Shown here one piece after another: positions 11,370 through 30,689 of a stretch of 34,095 nt of DNA. How positions within the stretch are numbered: position 1 is the stretch's first letter; every line of letters begins with the position of its first letter. The notes beneath the pieces were generated by a model, which searched no databases, was not told the DNA's origin, and saw only the letters and a list, made by a program, of their open reading frames with translations. This DNA is from a virus, in IMG/VR virus record IMGVR_UViG_3300037245_004852, positions 1 to 34,095 of that record; one strand, given 5' to 3'. The position numbers were made by a program, and so were the translations under genes.

Positions 11370-14351
11370 ATGGCAGATACCTGGATTAGTACAGATCAAG
11401 CTACTCTCGGCGAGTATGAAGACACAGATACCTATGAGGGTTATTGTTTCTGTGGTGCATTCGTTGCGCCATCAGGTTATACCTGTAATAGATTAGGGAT
11501 ATATTCTTTTGCTGATCCCGGGGCAGACCTTTATGCTAAGTTAGCTGTTTATGCGGATAGTGCAGGTGCTCCTACAGGCACTCCATTACAGGAATCTGCT
11601 CCAATTTTAATCAATGCCGCTGATCAGTGGTTTGATGTTGATATTTCTGATTTATCGATATCAAATGGTGTTACTTATCATATGGGTATGATAATGAGTA
11701 AGATGCCGAGCGCTGATTGGAGAAGGAGAGATCCTGGTGCGCCGAGTGGTGATTCACATTATGCGAGTGGAATAAGTTATCCGACATTTCCAACAAGCCC
11801 TGATACAGGTCCTTCATCAAGACGCTATGGCGCTTTCCGGATGGGTTACGCTGAAGTACCCTCTGGTGAAATGAGCGGTACTGCAACTATAACAATTAAT
11901 GCATCTGGAGAATTAACACAACCAGTTACAGAATGGTTATCAGATTGGAAATATAGAAGAGAAATAACAGTTTCAAATACAAATATTGATAGTAACTTAA
12001 CCCATTTCCCCGCTCTTTTAACGCTTGGTAGTTCTGTCGGGATAGGTAACGATAATGTAACAAGTATTTTTGATGAGCTGGGTTCTGATAGTAAAAAGAT
12101 AGCTATCACTAAAACAGATGGAGTTACTCAACTTTATGCAGAAATAGAAGAGTGGGATGATTCGGGTGAAACCGCGGTATTATGGGTTTCAAAATCCGAT
12201 TTAATACTTACAAGCGGTTCAAGTACAAGTCTGTACTTCTATTATGATTCCTCGAAAGACGACAATACTACATATATAGGTGATACAAAAGGTTCTACAC
12301 CTGTTACCAATGTCTGGGATAGTAATTTTGGTAGCGTGTGGCATTTAAATGAGACATCTGGTGGTTCAGGTGCTATCAAAGATTCAATCGGGAATGATAA
12401 TGGAACTGATCTTAATAGCCCTACTCTGGAGTCAACAGGACAGATAGGTAATGCTATTGAGTTCAATACTGGAGATTCGGAGGCTATTGATTTAGATGGT
12501 TCTGGGTATAATCAAGGTGCTTTTACTGTAAAAATGTGGATTAACCCGCAATCAGGAGTTGCACAATACCAAAGAGCATTAACATTCGGGCCGGATGATA
12601 ATACTACTCGTTCCTTTTTAGTTGTTTGGATTACAGGGACCTCCGATAATCCAGAGTTACAGGGTATTGTAGGAACGGGTGAGGCTCCTGCGGAAGAGGC
12701 TTCGAATGTAGGAGGTGAAGTTAGTCAATCTACTTGGACTCATTGGGTATGGACATTTGATGGAGGTACTGCCCATAAGTTATATGTAAATTCTGTTGAT
12801 ACAAATAGCACAGGCCTTGGGACGGGATTAGGTATTACAGGATCTACTTATATTGCGAGCCGTAATTTAGGATCTTATTTTGATGGTATCATTGATGAAG
12901 TAACAATTTCAAATTCTGTTAGAAACGCTGCATGGGTTAAAGCGGAATTTTATTCAGAAACTGATGACCTGGTAACTTGGGGTGGTGAAGACCCATACCC
13001 AGGTACAACTTACACAGTAACATTTCATTGTGGTGCTAACGGTACCCTGACCGGTGCTGATGCAACTCAATCTGTGAGCCCTGGAGGAGATAGCACAAGT
13101 ATAACTGCTACTGCTGATGGTACACATGTCTTTGATGGCTGGACTGGTGACCATGTATCTCTGATCAATCCACTGCAGTTAACTAACGTTACTTCAGATA
13201 AAGATGTGACATCCAATTACGGTCTATGGGGGATAAATAATCCAAATTATATGTATAGATCAGATAATACTCAATGCCTGTTCTGTGGCTGCGATACGAC
13301 TGATTATACCTCTGTTATCTGTGATTGTTCATCCGTGCCCTATCCCATTACGGCTGGGGTCCGGGAAGGAGCGTATGGATTAGCAAGCGATGAAGCGACA
13401 CACGAAGACTGGACCAATGGTTTTTGGGGCATGCACTGGCGTACAGGACGTGCGGATAAAGTTGGACTATGGAATATCTCTCATATTATCGGTAATGATT
13501 GCCAATTCGGTTTTATTGATCCTGGCGATACTACTGATGTCAATATTACATTTACTGGATCAGATATACATTCAAGCTTATTCACACAATTTGACTCAGA
13601 CGGTGATATTGATATTTATCTGGCGTTGGAACTTGGTGAAGCAGATCCAACCGAATGTATAGAAGTAGCATTAAATCAATACGGTGATCACTCCTGTGTA
13701 AAAGGAATATTGATAGATTTGGAATGGTGGAACGTAGATAGTGGAGGTAATTATTCTGTACAATTACCTAAGGCGACAGCAGAATCATGGCTATCTACGA
13801 TTCAAGGCTATGATGAAAATTATAAATTAATAACGAGACACCCAAAACCTGAAATTCACCCACCTCCCACGCCTGCTTTTGACGAAGATATCTGGGTAAA
13901 TTGTGATGATCAGGGTTTTATAGAATTAGGTGATTCTACTACCACCGGTGATTTCATGATACCAATGTTCAAAACTTTCTGTGATACCTTTCCAGATCAT
14001 ACGTGTATTTTTCAAATAGGTTATAATTCTATTTGGGGCGATGGTGGGGAGACCAGAAATGATAAGGATTGGTGGGGGGGCTATGATAATCCGCCAACAA
14101 CAATTATTGATGCAATAAAAGATTATATAATAACACCTCGAGCAGATAGTACAAGCCAGTCCTTTGGAATAACATGGGTAGATTTTTCGTTAGAGGACGA
14201 AGAAATTGATTTATTGGATACACCTGATTCAACAGCATTATGGGGAAACTGTGAATTACATAATTTTGCTATAGCCGATGTAAAATTAAACTTGCCAGCA
14301 AATTCTCCGGTATGTAGTTGTTGTGATACTTCTGGAAAGGCTTGTTGGTAA
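11370..14351 (+). CDS. Multidomain adhesin/depolymerase candidate: DUF2341, LamG, repeat, TIM-barrel-like end
   Basis: 993 residues, SD AAAGGA. Order: an N-terminal beta-sandwich (about 1-170) of the kind that precedes carbohydrate-binding modules; a DUF2341-like module (about 192-320, opening WKYRREITVSNTNID); LamG (about 323-545, with IKDSIGNDNGTDLNSPTL and FDGIIDEVTIS); an InlB-type B-repeat (about 546-615, with HVFDGWTGDHVSL); and a C-terminal region (about 617-993). The C-terminal region looks like an alpha/beta barrel, with a strand GILIDLEWW near residue 780 and later FGITWVDFSLED. Acidic residues at strand ends are typical of glycoside-hydrolase-like barrels. Cysteines cluster at CLFCGCDTTDYTSVICDC and at the extreme C-terminus (VCSCC). 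A tail enzyme that digests a surface polymer is plausible but unproven. Confidence 0.7.
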   Translation: MADTWISTDQATLGEYEDTDTYEGYCFCGAFVAPSGYTCNRLGIYSFADPGADLYAKLAVYADSAGAPTGTPLQESAPILINAADQWFDVDISDLSISNGVTYHMGMIMSKMPSADWRRRDPGAPSGDSHYASGISYPTFPTSPDTGPSSRRYGAFRMGYAEVPSGEMSGTATITINASGELTQPVTEWLSDWKYRREITVSNTNIDSNLTHFPALLTLGSSVGIGNDNVTSIFDELGSDSKKIAITKTDGVTQLYAEIEEWDDSGETAVLWVSKSDLILTSGSSTSLYFYYDSSKDDNTTYIGDTKGSTPVTNVWDSNFGSVWHLNETSGGSGAIKDSIGNDNGTDLNSPTLESTGQIGNAIEFNTGDSEAIDLDGSGYNQGAFTVKMWINPQSGVAQYQRALTFGPDDNTTRSFLVVWITGTSDNPELQGIVGTGEAPAEEASNVGGEVSQSTWTHWVWTFDGGTAHKLYVNSVDTNSTGLGTGLGITGSTYIASRNLGSYFDGIIDEVTISNSVRNAAWVKAEFYSETDDLVTWGGEDPYPGTTYTVTFHCGANGTLTGADATQSVSPGGDSTSITATADGTHVFDGWTGDHVSLINPLQLTNVTSDKDVTSNYGLWGINNPNYMYRSDNTQCLFCGCDTTDYTSVICDCSSVPYPITAGVREGAYGLASDEATHEDWTNGFWGMHWRTGRADKVGLWNISHIIGNDCQFGFIDPGDTTDVNITFTGSDIHSSLFTQFDSDGDIDIYLALELGEADPTECIEVALNQYGDHSCVKGILIDLEWWNVDSGGNYSVQLPKATAESWLSTIQGYDENYKLITRHPKPEIHPPPTPAFDEDIWVNCDDQGFIELGDSTTTGDFMIPMFKTFCDTFPDHTCIFQIGYNSIWGDGGETRNDKDWWGGYDNPPTTIIDAIKDYIITPRADSTSQSFGITWVDFSLEDEEIDLLDTPDSTALWGNCELHNFAIADVKLNLPANSPVCSCCDTSGKACW

Positions 14352-14920: not shown

Positions 14921-15559
14921 ATGCTTTATGTTAAAACTGCTTGGATAATAAGAAAAACAGCGGGAGCATATTTAGAAGCAATAAAAAAGATAGACGAAGA
15001 AGTTTTTGTATTCTTAAAAAAAAATCCGAATCCCTCGGATATTCAGGTCCATGCTTTTGCTAAAGAGAAGGAATATAATGTGCATGATCTGGAGAAAGCT
15101 TTTTATCACTTAGCTACGAAGTACGTGCAACTTAAGTCAGAGCAGGATAAAGAGGCTTCTGATGCCAAAGGATTTTCTGTTAATATAGAAAAAAATACTA
15201 TCAGTAATGCTAATTTCAGAAAAGTCTTATATACCGGAAAAAATATGCAATTGGTATTGATGAGTTTAAGACCTAATGAGGATATAGGTGATGAAGTGCA
15301 TAAAGTGGATCAGTTCTTTCGGATAGAAAAAGGAACTGGAGAAGCAATAATAAACGGTAATAAACATTCCTTGTCTGATGGTGTCTCTCTTATTGTTCCA
15401 GCAGGATCAAAGCATAATTTAATGAATACTGGTAAAGGGGAAATGAAAATTTACTCAATATATAGTCCTCCTCAGCATGAAGATGGTGTGACACATGAAA
15501 CAAAAGAAAAAGCAATGGAGGATGAAGAGGAACACTTTGATGGGAAGACAACTGAATAA
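14921..15559 (+). CDS. Cupin-domain protein with phage-type helical N-terminus
   Basis: 212 residues, SD AAGGAAG. Residues about 1-80 are helical, with FLKKNPNPSDIQVHAFAKEK, a segment of the type found in small phage virion proteins. Residues about 90-212 form a cupin: EVHKVDQFFRIEKGTGEAII gives motif 1 with His (near 127), Gln and Glu as metal ligands, and VPAGSKHNLMN gives the motif 2 His. The C-terminal SPPQHEDGVTHETK matches a bacterial cupin family related to mannose-6-phosphate isomerase-like proteins. The cupin may bind metal or sugar; no substrate can be named. A fusion of a virion-type module with a bacterial cupin suggests it is carried in or on the particle. Confidence 0.7.
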   Translation: MLYVKTAWIIRKTAGAYLEAIKKIDEEVFVFLKKNPNPSDIQVHAFAKEKEYNVHDLEKAFYHLATKYVQLKSEQDKEASDAKGFSVNIEKNTISNANFRKVLYTGKNMQLVLMSLRPNEDIGDEVHKVDQFFRIEKGTGEAIINGNKHSLSDGVSLIVPAGSKHNLMNTGKGEMKIYSIYSPPQHEDGVTHETKEKAMEDEEEHFDGKTTE

Positions 15560-24612: not shown

Positions 24613-25485
24613 ATGGCTGAAATTAGCAATCAGGTAAAACAGGAAATTATCCAGGAATACATAAAGACAGCTGGTGGGCGTGTGAAATTAGCAGCATCTA
24701 TGACACAGCCTCTGCGTCTTAGGAGAGACTATACCTCGGTAGGTCGTAAGACCTTCTTGGTAGAACAGCTCCCTGACGGTGCACTGCCGATTTACGACAA
24801 GGATCCATATGTCACTGCATACGTGGTCGGTGAAGAGGGTCAGAATATTCTGGCTATCACCAAACCTCGCCGTGTCATATTCCCCTTGTTCGAGATTTCT
24901 TCAAATCCAGAAATTCCGTTGACCCAGGTCAAGGAACGTAGGTTTGATCTCATCGAACGTGCTCAGGACCTTGCGAAAGCTGAGATCCAGGCTGAAGAAG
25001 ACACTCGTGTCTTTGAAATCCTGGATGCAGTGGCCACATCAGGTTTTGATAACATCGGTGCGACAAATGCCGACATTCCAGCAACAGCTCCGTTAACACC
25101 GGCTGATCTGGCAGACGCTTTTGCTCTCGTCGAGCGGCATGACCTTCGCGTAGCCCGTGTGTTCGCAAACGCACTGGATTACAGCGACATCCGTAAGTGG
25201 GGCAGGGACGTTCTGGATATTGAGAGCCAGGCAACCTTACTGAAAACCGGTCTGATGGCCTCCGTATGGGGTGCCCAGATCATAGTATCACGTAGGGTCC
25301 CAACGGGATACATCTATGTTTGTGCAGAACCTGAATTCTTCGGCCGGATCCCGGTTCGTACCGAGTTGACAGTTCTTTCTGCCGATGATCCTAAAAACCG
25401 TACCATCGGTTTCAGTTGCTTTGAAAACCTTGGTATCGGCTGTCACAACCCTCTGGGTCTGACACGGGTGGTTCTTTCTCGGTAA
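24613..25485 (+). CDS. Major capsid protein (HK97-fold)
   Basis: 290 residues, SD GGGAGGTGAG. Pattern of a short HK97-fold capsid protein: N-terminal helix (EISNQVKQEIIQEYIKTAGG), E-loop region (RRDYTSVGRKTFLVEQLPDG), a spine with LTQVKERRFDLIERAQDLAK and AEIQAEEDTRVFEILDAVAT, then A-domain sequence (LADAFALVERHDL, VWGAQIIVSRRVPTGYIYVC) and a closing FSCFENLGIGCHNPLGLTRV. It forms the icosahedral shell. It has no long N-terminal delta domain, in keeping with a separate scaffold gene. GC-rich third positions and a strong SD fit the most abundant virion protein. A terminator follows after about 30 bases. Confidence 0.85.
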   Translation: MAEISNQVKQEIIQEYIKTAGGRVKLAASMTQPLRLRRDYTSVGRKTFLVEQLPDGALPIYDKDPYVTAYVVGEEGQNILAITKPRRVIFPLFEISSNPEIPLTQVKERRFDLIERAQDLAKAEIQAEEDTRVFEILDAVATSGFDNIGATNADIPATAPLTPADLADAFALVERHDLRVARVFANALDYSDIRKWGRDVLDIESQATLLKTGLMASVWGAQIIVSRRVPTGYIYVCAEPEFFGRIPVRTELTVLSADDPKNRTIGFSCFENLGIGCHNPLGLTRVVLSR

Positions 25486-25986: not shown

Positions 25987-26559
25987 ATGTACCTGACATT
26001 TTTAAAGATGTGTAAGCTTGTTCTCAGTTTCGGTGGGGACAAGGAAGACAATCTTCTGCATTATCTCGCACGACCTCGTTGTAACATGGAGGGTGTCGCT
26101 GAAAAGGCTCTCCAGGCTTTCAAACGTAGGATTCCTTTTACCGAATGTTCTCTTGGTTTTGCTCCGCAGGATTCCAAAATTTACAAGAAACGCTTTCAAT
26201 TATTGAATCATAATAACAGAGCATTTCAGATTGCTATCAAAGAAAACCCTACTATTGAAGAATTGGAAGAGTTTTCATTAATTGAGCCCGGTTGGTCTAT
26301 TCTTTTTCCTTTGAAGGCCTTTTTACATGATCATCCCAAGATGGCCGTTAAGTACAGAGGTCTGGTTCCTTTTGGGAAAACTGTCATGGCTTTTTTTAAT
26401 GCCTTAGAGATAGGAGAGCCTGTAAAAGGTACTCCTTCTTTTGGTGATCATATAGCTTTGCAGGAATTAACAAATAAATTGGCAGATCTTCATGGATGCA
26501 GTACAATTCTTATTAATAATTTAATGTATCTTGAAGGTATGAAAATGAAAGCCGACTAA
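25987..26559 (+). CDS. Hypothetical protein behind structured leader
   Basis: 190 residues with an excellent AAGGAGG six bases before the ATG. It is mostly helical, with LVLSFGGDKEDNLLHYLARP early, EGVAEKALQAFKRRIPFTE, then a hydrophobic GWSILFPLKAFLHDHPKMAV and a closing helix HIALQELTNKLADLHGCSTI. No signal peptide or clear membrane helix. No family recognised. Its leader holds a terminator-like hairpin and a three-way junction, which suggests regulated expression separate from the capsid operon. A terminator follows its stop. Confidence 0.6.
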   Translation: MYLTFLKMCKLVLSFGGDKEDNLLHYLARPRCNMEGVAEKALQAFKRRIPFTECSLGFAPQDSKIYKKRFQLLNHNNRAFQIAIKENPTIEELEEFSLIEPGWSILFPLKAFLHDHPKMAVKYRGLVPFGKTVMAFFNALEIGEPVKGTPSFGDHIALQELTNKLADLHGCSTILINNLMYLEGMKMKAD

Positions 26560-26668: not shown

Positions 26669-26947
26669 ATGAAGGTCCCAATTTCTGATAAAATAATTCT
26701 GACGGCTGACATTATTACCGGTAAGAAAAAAAAGTGGATGCAGCAAATGACAAAATCAAAGAAATTTGAAGAAGGAGCTCTTAGAAAACATTTCGGTCTT
26801 AAAAAAGACGAAACAATAACTATTGCTATGATTGAAAAAGAGCTAAACCGTCTTGAGAAAAAATATCCCGATGGTGGCTATTCAAAATCTGATCTGGAGC
26901 TTCAAAAACGTTTAGTGGCCGCTAGGACTATGATGAGTCGAAGTTAA
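26669..26947 (+). CDS. Small basic conserved phage-type protein
   Basis: 92 residues, AAAGGAGG before the ATG. The centre FEEGALRKHFGLKKDETITI (about 31-50) resembles a short GALRKALGVKEGE-type module that recurs in proteins of large phages. It is followed by an amphipathic helix (IEKELNRLEKKYPDG) and a basic end. The N-terminal KVPISDKIILTADIITGKKK is unusual. Probably a small virion or DNA-associated protein; function unknown. Its stop is two bases from the stop of the convergent minus-strand gene, with no visible terminator between. Confidence 0.6.
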   Translation: MKVPISDKIILTADIITGKKKKWMQQMTKSKKFEEGALRKHFGLKKDETITIAMIEKELNRLEKKYPDGGYSKSDLELQKRLVAARTMMSRS

Positions 26948-26948
26948 T

Positions 26949-27959
26949 CTACGTGATGTTTTCTATTGTCTCTATAGCACTGTCTATTGATTCACCTAAT
27001 CCTGAATCTTCCAGGAATTCTTCAAATTCGTCTCGGATAGCCTGTCTCTTTTTTCTAAATCTGTCCTTGGCATCAGGCCCTAGATATTTTTCAATAGCTT
27101 CACGGACTAAGTCCCGGGCAACGTCTGGTATAGTGATTATGGCATTGGCTTCGCATTTTCTTTCACCTATAGTATGCAGATATTCCTGAACATAGGACAT
27201 TTTGAAATTTTTATGGGTAGGAGATGCGAGGTTTTTCTTTGATCCAGTTATTAAATTATTGATCCAGGTGAGATCGTTATCTTCAATGAAATCATAATTC
27301 AGGCCGAATCTTTCAATTATCAGATCAGAAGGATCGTAACCAGCTAAATTATCATTCCAGACAACATCTTTTAAATCATAAAGATTTTTTCTTATAAATT
27401 CCGAAATACGTAAACCGTCAGGATCGTGATCTCCACAATATAGTAACACGCATTTGAGTCCTCTATCTTCAGCTTCTGCAAATCGACGGGCATACTCGGC
27501 CCGCTGAAGCATAGAGCCCCATCCCCGTGAATTTGCGATACATAAATGATACTCTTCGCATACTGGTTGAAAAAGAGTCACAAGATCAATTTTCTCTACA
27601 ACCATTTGGATATAATATTCTTCACCCTCCCACCAATCGGGAGTATATACTTCTGCGGTATTCCGAGTGAATTTTAGATATTGACCGAATTTCTCTATAA
27701 CATCCTTTTCATCAGGTTTTTCAACATTTTGAAATTCTCTGGCGCTCTCCTCGGCAACAAAATCGATGGGTAGGAGGCCTTTTCTTCTACATTTGTTTAT
27801 CAGTTCGTTTACTCTCTCGAATTCATCCTTGTTTATTAGTCGTCTTGTTTCTAATAGATAGCACCAACCACGGGAGGACACTTTGAAACCAATCTTATCC
27901 GATATATCTTGTAAATATTCGGAAAATTCCTCTAAATCAACACCTCTGTCTAAATTCAT
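26949..27959 (-). CDS. TOPRIM-domain protein, topoisomerase VI A/Spo11-like
   Basis: 336 residues. Residues about 25-70 resemble the winged-helix region of topoisomerase VI A: SSRGWCYLLETRRLINKDEF, then NKCRRKGLLPIDFV. A TOPRIM core follows, with the conserved Glu in MVVEKIDLVTLF (near 122) and the Asp-x-Asp motif in YCGDHDPDGLRISEFI (near 175). The tail (280-336) is charged and helical. In the family such proteins bind Mg and cut or bind DNA. The usual catalytic tyrosine cannot be assigned with certainty (Tyr near 33 is a candidate). It starts one base after the nucleoside hydrolase stop, so the two are coupled. It is alone, without a topoisomerase VI B partner here. The TOPRIM call is strong; activity is unknown. 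Confidence 0.7.
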   Translation of the reverse strand: MNLDRGVDLEEFSEYLQDISDKIGFKVSSRGWCYLLETRRLINKDEFERVNELINKCRRKGLLPIDFVAEESAREFQNVEKPDEKDVIEKFGQYLKFTRNTAEVYTPDWWEGEEYYIQMVVEKIDLVTLFQPVCEEYHLCIANSRGWGSMLQRAEYARRFAEAEDRGLKCVLLYCGDHDPDGLRISEFIRKNLYDLKDVVWNDNLAGYDPSDLIIERFGLNYDFIEDNDLTWINNLITGSKKNLASPTHKNFKMSYVQEYLHTIGERKCEANAIITIPDVARDLVREAIEKYLGPDAKDRFRKKRQAIRDEFEEFLEDSGLGESIDSAIETIENIT

Positions 27960-27960
27960 A

Positions 27961-28839
27961 TTATATACTCTCAGCTATGTGTTCCCATAATTTATCGTAA
28001 TCTATATCAACAATAATTTTATCATTTGTTGTTCCATTTACATGTGCACCCCATTGACCTTTTTCTCGGTATAATTTGGCATTTACCCATGTTGCTATTT
28101 CAGGATGGAGATGGCATACTGCAGCAGATGGATCATGAAATTTCTTACCTTTAGGGTGTCTTTTGAGATAGAGCCCCATACCCTCTCTTAAGAGCTCTGA
28201 CGCTCTGTTTCTTGGAGGAGTCTGCATTACTCTTCTATGGACATCAGTGTTATATACAATAGTATGACAGACATTTTTTGATACAAAACGTCTTTCCTGG
28301 ATATTTGCTTCTAGAAATGCCGTTGATCCTTTAACATCGCCATTAAGATTAAAGGTTGCAACGGTATTTCTCCCTTTAAATTTATCAAGCTGGGGTACTT
28401 TAATACCGTGCTCATCGTATCCTATAAAACCGCCCTGCATGGTAGCTTTAGTAATCTGGACCTGGTGCGTAGAAAGATAACGTCCTATATTTTTAACTGC
28501 ACCGCAGATAAATAACTCAGTAACAGGATGAAGACGGTCATTTAACAATCCTTCTGACAAAAGGCATTCAGAGGAGTGTAAAGGGTATTTATACTTTTCT
28601 AAAAGCTGTCGATGCACACTTGTAGGTTCTTCTCTATGTCTTCCTATGAGAGGAACCCCTATAAGAGTGTTCGGGCTTAATTCATTAATAAGGAATTTAA
28701 CTATGGCTACTTGTGATTCATCCCCGGGAGTAAGCAGAATAGCTCTAATATCGACCCCTGCTGAGAATAGATAGCATAAAGCAAAGAAGTCATCGGGGTC
28801 ATGCCCTATATCAGTCTCAACAATTAATTCATTTTCCAT
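27961..28839 (-). CDS. Inosine-uridine-type nucleoside hydrolase
   Basis: 292 residues, within the usual 290-340; AAAGGA lies before the ATG. The N-terminus IVETDIGHDPDDFFALCYL carries the calcium-binding Asp cluster of the family (Asp10, Asp14, Asp16, Asp17), with Glu8 where the first Asp often is. Later family landmarks: FICGAVKNIGRYL (about 109-121, equivalent to the GPLTNL segment), MQGGFIGYD (about 133-141), and HDPSAAVCHLHPE (near 233). It should cleave N-glycosidic bonds of ribonucleosides or related compounds. In a phage it might feed salvage or alter signalling nucleotides. It lies between the exported protein and the TOPRIM gene in a three-gene operon. The family is secure; the substrate is not. 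Confidence 0.8.
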   Translation of the reverse strand: MENELIVETDIGHDPDDFFALCYLFSAGVDIRAILLTPGDESQVAIVKFLINELSPNTLIGVPLIGRHREEPTSVHRQLLEKYKYPLHSSECLLSEGLLNDRLHPVTELFICGAVKNIGRYLSTHQVQITKATMQGGFIGYDEHGIKVPQLDKFKGRNTVATFNLNGDVKGSTAFLEANIQERRFVSKNVCHTIVYNTDVHRRVMQTPPRNRASELLREGMGLYLKRHPKGKKFHDPSAAVCHLHPEIATWVNAKLYREKGQWGAHVNGTTNDKIIVDIDYDKLWEHIAESI

Positions 28840-28845
28840 TTCCTT

Positions 28846-29277
28846 TTATATCTTTCTACTTATAATTATTTTCGTTAATCTGTTATTTTTTAATTCCAAA
28901 GTCATAATATAATTAATTCCATTGCCATAGTTATACTCTAAAATTTCTCTGGTGGGGAGTGTATCTATGTCAGTTTTCCCGAGTTTTTTGAAGATTTTTC
29001 TCTTTGACATGCCTATTTCTAAATGGTCAAATTTCCCCTCTTTTATCTCAATACTGTACAAAACATCAATTAGGAGATAACAAATCAGGTTATCTTTACG
29101 ATAAATCATATTTGTTTTACCGAGTTGTTCTACTTTAGTGCCTGAAATTCCCCAAGCGGTCAGTAAATCTGTGACAGTTATCTCTTCTTTGAGGTTAAGG
29201 CCAAAAAGGTTATGGCTCATAGTATCGCCCATGCAGAGGGCTACTAACAGTGTGATAATAATGGTGAAGGATTTCAT
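28846..29277 (-). CDS. Small exported protein of accessory cassette
   Basis: 143 residues, AAGGAG 8-9 bases before the ATG. Residues 1-17 form a signal peptide: MKSF, then IIITLLVALCMG. Cys15 follows LVAL, so a non-canonical lipobox is possible, otherwise cleavage after the small residues beyond it. The mature part has two short repeats of a SmpA/BamE-like strand-helix pattern: KEEITVTDLLTAWGISGTKV, and later KFDHLEIGMSKRKIFKKLGK, with a GMSK.KI...LG motif. It is first in the minus-strand operon, behind a TATAAT-like promoter. A host-envelope-modifying (moron) role is inferred. The SmpA-like resemblance is weak. Confidence 0.6.
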   Translation of the reverse strand: MKSFTIIITLLVALCMGDTMSHNLFGLNLKEEITVTDLLTAWGISGTKVEQLGKTNMIYRKDNLICYLLIDVLYSIEIKEGKFDHLEIGMSKRKIFKKLGKTDIDTLPTREILEYNYGNGINYIMTLELKNNRLTKIIISRKI

Positions 29278-29319
29278 TCTCTTTCTCCTTATTTGAGTTA
29301 AATTTCTCTTTCCATTTAT

Positions 29320-29534: not shown

Positions 29535-30236
29535 ATGGTAACCTATGCTAAAATTTATGAACTTCTTGATCCTATTATCAAGAAGAATCCAAAAATAACA
29601 ATCTCTGAATTAAGAAAGGAGCATCCAGAGATTGTTAAGAAAATTTCTTACTGGTCTTTCCGTGCCCGTGTAAACAAGTTAACTGGGAAAAAGAGTTATG
29701 GGAAGAAGAAATCTGCCAAAAAGGCAGCAGTCAAAAAAACCGGCATGAAGAGGAAATATGTCAGGAAAGTTGTGGCTGTAGATAAATACTCAACTATAGT
29801 AGAAACAATTCAGAAAATTGTTCCTACTACGAAGAGAATGAAAGAATATATTGAAATAGGTAAAATTCTGGTGGATAACCCAAATGCAGTTCATTCTCAA
29901 TTGAAGAAGACCGGCAAAGTAAAAATGTGTGATGCGAATTTTTATCAGTTCCGGAGGAAATTTTGTACGATGATGGGTCTCAATCTTACCGCTCCATCAG
30001 TAAATAGCGGTGGTAACCACAGCCAGCATCCGGTAAGTCCTGTGCCCGCTCCTAAAAGGAAGACAGCAATCTACACTGTTCTCTATGAGAGGGAGTCAGA
30101 CGGGTATGATGCAAAAGCCAAAGATCTCGTAACTGAAATTTTTGAAGCTCTCCAGAGGGAAAGAGTAGCGAACCTGGAAATGGTAGAGCTGATTCATCCG
30201 ACCAAGGTTCTTGAGGTACGTTCTTATCAAAAATAA
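29535..30236 (+). CDS. Basic protein with two similar helical units
   Basis: 233 residues, GAAAGGAG six bases before the ATG. Residues about 8-50 (ELLDPIIKKNPKITISELRK, then WSFRARVNKLTG) and about 88-150 (ILVDNPNAVHSQLKKTGKVK, then NFYQFRRKFCTMMG) share the order xNPxxxxSxLKK ... FxxFRxKxxxxxG, so they look like diverged copies of one domain. A Lys-rich linker (about 51-75) separates them. The C-terminal 60 residues include YTVLYERESDGYDAKAKDLV. The predicted role is nucleic-acid binding from charge and helix-turn-helix-like layout; no named family recognised. It heads an operon of small basic proteins. Confidence 0.6.
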   Translation: MVTYAKIYELLDPIIKKNPKITISELRKEHPEIVKKISYWSFRARVNKLTGKKSYGKKKSAKKAAVKKTGMKRKYVRKVVAVDKYSTIVETIQKIVPTTKRMKEYIEIGKILVDNPNAVHSQLKKTGKVKMCDANFYQFRRKFCTMMGLNLTAPSVNSGGNHSQHPVSPVPAPKRKTAIYTVLYERESDGYDAKAKDLVTEIFEALQRERVANLEMVELIHPTKVLEVRSYQK

Positions 30237-30293: not shown

Positions 30294-30689
30294 ATGAAGC
30301 AGCAAAAAGTTGTCGAAGTCATGAGGAAAGAGAAAGGCTGGCATGCTATAATGTCAGAGACTCGTGACAAAATTATTTTAGCAAGACAGTTTGGTATAAA
30401 GAGTAAGAAATATATTACCCTTGTTTTGACGCATTCAAAAGGGAATTATATACTCGAACATCCGAACTATGAATTTGTGAACAGAGTTGCTCATTTTAAA
30501 TCTGTTCAGAAGGATATAAGGCTTTCTCTGAATAAGACCTACCTTGGTTCTATTATACATGCGCTGAAAAGAGCCGGTGTATGGCCTTATATCATGAATA
30601 AAAGTTTTCTCAGAGTAAATACCGAAAACACGAAATCAGATAAAGGAAAGGTTAGAAGAGAACTCGCAGGTTTACTTTCAAAGAATTAA
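30294..30689 (+). CDS. Small basic hypothetical protein
   Basis: 131 residues, AAGAAGGAG before the ATG. Helical and basic throughout: an early VVEVMRKEKGWHAIMSETRD, a middle ILARQFGIKSKKYITLVLTH, an aromatic YILEHPNYEFVNRVAHFKS, and a C-terminal IIHALKRAGVWPYIMNKSFL. No catalytic motif. Its layout, a small domain followed by helices with conserved aromatic residues, is in the style of the other proteins in this operon and would fit DNA or RNA binding. Not recognised. Confidence 0.55.
   Translation: MKQQKVVEVMRKEKGWHAIMSETRDKIILARQFGIKSKKYITLVLTHSKGNYILEHPNYEFVNRVAHFKSVQKDIRLSLNKTYLGSIIHALKRAGVWPYIMNKSFLRVNTENTKSDKGKVRRELAGLLSKN

Follow-up and report, generated by a model that had tools for sequence, protein, structure and literature searches.

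The original description of the Mini-A proteins is said to be that of Takahashi et al. (2020), and to our knowledge no Mini-A has a measured activity. The family consists of truncated homologues of the topoisomerase VI A subunit (Topo VI A) found in viruses and plasmids (PMC7614492, PMC8185306), and the membership criteria used here were taken from reviews. For the residues of a Topo VI-type enzyme, M. mazei Top6 serves as reference with R102, Y106, E202, D254, D256 and E342 (PMC13040014). The second family considered here is that of the nucleoside hydrolases (Pfam IU_nuc_hydro, PF01156), represented by RihA, YeiK and the Crithidia hydrolase (CfNH). In CfNH the ribose 5'-hydroxyl is contacted by E166.

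Members of both families lie next to each other in the window, by which we mean the whole stretch of 34,095 nucleotides analysed. We put the probability at about 0.72 that a resident metabolic nucleoside hydrolase gene of a huge phage came as a passenger into a conserved Mini-A slot, on the minus strand behind the head genes, in which case the two proteins would need no joint function. Both Mini-A and PF01156 are already known; a hydrolase branch with a Thr/Ser ribose pocket and a post-head Mini-A slot remain useful.

The virus and the layout of the cassette

The major capsid protein of the window is 77% identical to that of LR745208 (uncultured phage, 485 kb), 49% to that of Tunturiibacter phage Tunturi_5 (309 kb) and 41% to that of Bacillus phage G (497 kb). 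Within IMG/VR, the identity is 98% to L065, L066 and L096, and 94% to G001 (469,617 bases; locus L097). This kinship, with which the portal and protease comparisons agree, argues that the window is most likely a fragment, less than one tenth, of a phage-G-like huge-phage genome and not a small phage genome. The capsid, portal and protease are common to the window, LR745208, phage G and related huge phages, whereas in whole-record searches LR745208, phage G and Tunturi_5 contained neither the hydrolase nor Mini-A. The features of the region are as follows.

24613..25485, plus strand: major capsid protein, which marks the virus as a phage-G-like huge phage
25987..26559, plus strand: uncharacterised conserved protein, 190 aa; syntenic homologue in L065 (75%)
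26669..26947, plus strand: uncharacterised conserved protein, 92 aa, convergent with Mini-A; syntenic homologue in L065 (75%)
26949..27959, minus strand: Mini-A, Topo VI A/Spo11-like by phrog_6247, residues and fold, 336 aa
27961..28839, minus strand: nucleoside hydrolase by PF01156, model and residues, 292 aa, catalytic Asp and His intact
28846..29277, minus strand: small exported protein, 143 aa, predicted signal peptide at the N terminus (ORF and L008 homologue)
through 29278, minus strand: cassette leader, with an AAGGAG ribosome site at about 29285-29290 read from the sequence
29325-29320, minus strand: -10 box TATAAT of the cassette; GTATAATATAAATG identical in the L008 leader
29535..30236, plus strand: uncharacterised conserved protein, 233 aa, divergent from the cassette; L065 50%, L097 31%, order kept
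30294..30689, plus strand: uncharacterised conserved protein, 131 aa; L065 74%, L097 50%, order kept

The cassette consists of three consecutive minus-strand ORFs (29277-26949), transcribed in the order exported protein, nucleoside hydrolase, TOPRIM protein (Mini-A), and the other clear genes of the window lie on the plus strand. An earlier note on this DNA had described three tightly packed genes with their own TATAAT box, the hydrolase stop and the TOPRIM start being one base apart. All of this was confirmed: the gaps are 6 nt and 1 nt (TAA-T-ATG), and the box is present within a leader that has diverged from that of L008 except for GTATAATATAAATG. A plain promoter scan of the region was near chance, with 15 found versus 11.3 +/- 3.4 expected. 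That the cassette interrupts the structural genes, as was also claimed, is only loosely true. It does lie behind the head genes, but its neighbours on both sides are uncharacterised and the nearest recognised structural gene, the capsid, ends at 25485. Judged by homology, the three ORFs are genes and not chance ORFs, because one matches phrog_6247, one matches IU_nuc_hydro and the exported protein has a homologue in L008.

This homologue of the exported protein stands at the equivalent place in L008 (43-53% identity), and a third one, with 42% identity, is found at the end of L100. The C terminus of the protein carries the pattern IGMSKxxI..LGK. The Pfam search returned only a sub-threshold match to DUF3192 (E 0.21), and NCBIfam has no name for any of the three cassette proteins. 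By eye, the exported protein resembles BamE/SmpA-OmlA. The virion genes of the window include one for a protein of 993 aa (11370-14351), in which a laminin-G-like domain and an InlB-type repeat were recognised, and one for a cupin protein of 212 aa (14921-15559).

Mini-A and the nucleoside hydrolase

Both family calls of the earlier note, a topoisomerase VI A-like TOPRIM protein and an intact nucleoside hydrolase, were right. By its sequence-family membership, the TOPRIM protein is a Mini-A: its match to phrog_6247 (DNA topoisomerase) extends over 304 residues with an E value of 5e-80, and it is 51% identical over 87% to a protein annotated as "Topo mini-A" on an archaeal plasmid (LC711081). 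Arg30 and Tyr34, the winged-helix arginine and the catalytic tyrosine spaced four residues apart, are invariant in 15 close and 14 diverse aligned rows. Glu122, Asp177 and Glu270 are invariant and Asp179 is near-invariant in 14 diverse Mini-A proteins, giving the TOPRIM Glu, the DxD and the distal Glu. The residue spacing fits the M. mazei set, in which E342 would be the counterpart of E270.

When compared with known members, i.e. the "Topo mini-A" of the archaeal plasmid P-10H_0 and those of Salmonella phage BP12C and HCIV-1, the window protein is similar over the full length. It is like them in having R-x3-Y, the TOPRIM Glu and DxD, and the C-terminal Glu, and in being virus- or plasmid-borne. 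It differs from them in clade, being part of a separate one within Mini-A that has an extra TWIDNLITGSKKNLAS insert, and in location, since its slot is on the minus strand behind the head genes of a huge phage and not in a replication region. Mini-A genes of other phages adjoin ThyX, helicase, DNA polymerase and RNR, i.e. replication or nucleotide genes. No Topo VI B (GHKL ATPase) subunit was found among the window proteins scanned, which are part of the proteins of a genome fragment.

The structure prediction that the earlier note had proposed for the TOPRIM protein gave a model with a pLDDT of 84. In the fold ranking by VIA, Topo VI A came first (1d3y, Z 9.4, rmsd 3.8, 154 residues), the top rows being 1d3y, 9o0g (9.1) and 2zbk (9.0), over 150-160 residues, while JetD (7til) and MksG (8b7f) reached Z 8.5-8.6, less than one unit below. 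Only VIA puts Topo VI A first; plain Foldseek returned no significant match for the model, so the support for a Topo VI A fold is moderate. PDB sequence searches with Mini-A queries found no relative. As for OLD and Gabija GajA, with which the earlier note had also suggested a comparison, they were not among the VIA rows listed, which carries no weight against them, and the 336-aa protein has no ATPase domain above the Pfam cut-off.

The hydrolase scores 38.0 bits (E 2e-9) against PF01156, for which the curated cut-off is 34.2. Its model (pLDDT 96.4) can be superposed from end to end on solved nucleoside hydrolases (VIA Z 26.5), and the calcium-site cluster D14, D16 and D17 as well as the catalytic H76, H235 and D236 are conserved when aligned to them. 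By these features it belongs to the PF01156 fold family, over its full length and with the look of an active enzyme. RihA, YeiK and CfNH share with it the whole fold (Z about 26), the DxGxDPDD calcium site, His76, His235-Asp236 and Asn164. The window protein is unlike them in its low identity (13-19%), in the replacement of Glu166 by Thr/Ser and in the variable position of Asn39, and its branch has an insert before FNLNGD and an invariant KNxCH. Among the 38 branch members, the CfNH Glu166 position is T in 34 and S in 4, and the position of Asn39 is taken by Asp, Thr, Gly, Ser or Tyr. The 5'-OH-binding Glu of the ribose pocket is present in the aligned solved hydrolases and missing here, so ordinary nucleosides may not be the substrate, and the pocket changes in the branch suggest an unusual one. 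This loss weakens the claim on the substrate and not the membership in PF01156, since the Glu is not defining for the fold. We know of no member of the branch with a measured activity, and our literature search found no study of a comparable phage nucleoside hydrolase.

Relatives of the hydrolase occur mainly in large-phage contigs, and cellular ones in Myxococcota, cyanobacteria and others; a tblastn search of isolated phages and plasmids gave no match at 1e-5. In the tree, the window hydrolase forms one clade with those of L013 (from G001) and L014, with a support of 100/99. Elsewhere the gene has metabolic neighbours such as NT5C 5'-nucleotidase, thymidylate synthase, RNR, dCMP deaminase and nicotinamide phosphoribosyltransferase, which are varied, with no neighbour family strongly enriched. 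Two salvage pathways were considered as leads and rejected. For NAD, the NAPRTase family is present in 13 of the 19 hydrolase-bearing large contigs, yet also in 4 of 7 without the hydrolase, and is not enriched. For queuosine, a Q_salvage-domain protein was seen near one hydrolase-bearing locus and did not recur.

The slot in related genomes and the readings of the pair

The closest relative (L008/L065, capsid 98%) has at the same place an exported protein (43-53%) and a Mini-A (80%) that are 4 nt apart, with no hydrolase, and its flanking genes are the same as those of the window at 50-75% identity. In G001/L097 (capsid 94%), the slot upstream of the orthologues of 29535, 30294 and 31648 also holds a Mini-A (L097:12910-13797). 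This Mini-A is only 24% identical to the window protein at 26949-27959, belongs to another Mini-A clade and has an unrelated 242-aa gene as its upstream neighbour. The post-capsid slot of these sister huge phages has thus apparently undergone a non-orthologous Mini-A replacement. The hydrolase of G001 is located at 121,479-122,348, 157 kb from its Mini-A slot. The Mini-A slot was seen in only three genomes of this lineage; all of them are metagenomic and most are fragments.

A whole-record profile search, in which the positive controls worked, found the hydrolase in none of 27 other Mini-A records. The reverse whole-record search found Mini-A in one of 19 large hydrolase-bearing contigs, with adjacency in none. 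The pair stands together only in the window, and in none of the related genomes examined are the two genes adjacent; the earlier note, which had proposed the co-occurrence search, had named such a result as one that would speak against its suggestion. The evidence says that the hydrolase and Mini-A are not a system, and that the combination, unfamiliar to the earlier note, would be a local arrangement in one lineage. Because these genes also occur in a close relative that lacks the hydrolase, the pairing looks like a chance lodging and not a new defence system.

The passenger reading can be set out as follows. In the phage-G-like lineage, a minus-strand slot behind the head genes carries a Mini-A gene, as synteny shows for three genomes. 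Both in the window and in its closest relative, Mini-A stands downstream of the exported protein under a conserved -10 box. In the window lineage a hydrolase gene, kept elsewhere in a sister phage genome, is located between the two, as the presence or absence of the gene and the tree show. From parsimony over few genomes, the hydrolase was probably gained at the slot and not lost from it. Mini-A would most likely work as a Spo11-like dimer and sever both strands of the DNA via a 5'-phosphotyrosyl link, for which Tyr34 would act together with the TOPRIM metal site of the partner subunit; it may serve in phage DNA replication, recombination or topology. We infer this cleavage role because of the conserved residues, the fold and the replication-gene neighbourhoods in many phages. 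The hydrolase would most likely be an enzyme of nucleotide recycling that works on its own and converts nucleosides to base plus ribose. A common transcript would give co-expression, so no joint function of the two is needed.

The earlier note had instead suggested a joint function in defence, anti-defence or superinfection exclusion, for example by a change in a signalling nucleoside pool. In such a module the hydrolase would remove a signalling nucleotide and the TOPRIM protein would cut DNA. The tight gene spacing and the one common -10 box are consistent with such a module, Wadjet/MksBEFG and, at a greater distance, Gabija have Topo VI-like TOPRIM proteins as nucleases (PMC13040014), and nucleoside hydrolase folds can hold ADP-ribose (the 4p5f row in VIA). 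Nevertheless, we consider the module very unlikely, given the co-occurrence counts, the closest relative without the hydrolase, and PADLOC, which gave no match for the hydrolase or the exported protein and for the TOPRIM protein only JetD at E 0.008; in addition, Mini-A retains the tyrosine that JetD-type nucleases lack. That JetD match, together with the fold matches within one unit of Topo VI A, could also be read as a JetD/MksG-like defence nuclease in place of a Mini-A. JetD and MksG do share with the window protein a TOPRIM domain and a fold at Z about 8.5, but they have no winged-helix tyrosine (PMC10123090) and act with SMC complexes. Here Tyr34 and Arg30 are invariant, no JetABC or MksBEF family was seen in the cassette, its flanking genes or the other window proteins scanned, and the identity to an annotated Mini-A is 51%, so that this reading appears highly improbable.

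Quite unlikely, too, is a hydrolase acting alone in counter-defence by cleaving an NAD-derived or modified nucleoside signal, with Mini-A unrelated. The branch is mostly found in large phages, Thr/Ser at the Glu166 position in 38 of 38 members would suit a substrate with an altered 5' side, and the L017 member has a phosphoribosyltransferase-domain gene and a nicotinamide phosphoribosyltransferase at a distance of 3-4 kb; however, the branch has cellular homologues, and contigs with the hydrolase do not clearly carry NAPRTase more often than those that lack it. A wrong assembly join at the slot seems hardly credible. There is one metagenomic contig and no second contig with the pair, but both junctions lie precisely between genes that are intact and normally spaced, the G+C (0.385 vs 0.381) and codon use of the hydrolase gene match those of its neighbours, and its nearest relative comes from the same phage lineage. 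A further possibility, unlikely in its full form, is that the lineage keeps a dedicated Mini-A slot with clade replacement and that, in addition, the substrate of the hydrolase branch is an unusual nucleoside, either 5'-modified or with a modified base; interchanging Mini-A clades in a dedicated slot would then imply a late, packaging- or recombination-linked job of a lone Spo11-like enzyme.

Under the passenger reading, a suggested new defence pair is removed, and the comparison of close huge-phage relatives with and without the hydrolase separates the core gene from the passenger. The slot, the Mini-A clade replacement and the complete Top6-like cleavage residues provide concrete proteins for the question of lone A-type DNA cutting, and a new substrate might be found for the hydrolase branch.

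Some minor observations concern the same region and family. Between the capsid and the 25987 orthologue, L065 (2666-6849) encodes a LAGLIDADG endonuclease, a ParB-like protein, a PAPS reductase-like protein and an FkbM methyltransferase; because these four genes are absent from the window, the post-capsid region is, on this comparison, a hot spot of gene exchange. In two unrelated phages, BP12C (L004) and Delta (L006), Mini-A overlaps or abuts ThyX, which might point to a connection with the synthesis or modification of DNA bases. A decayed Mini-A of 128 aa that has lost its TOPRIM part adjoins a D5-like primase gene (L035:4956-5342). In a 149-kb phage contig, the Mini-A gene (L012:3522-5585) is interrupted in frame at the invariant IAN/SKGW site by an apparent intein of about 350 aa, which begins with Cys, ends in SGN before Ser and contains LAGLIDADG-like motifs.
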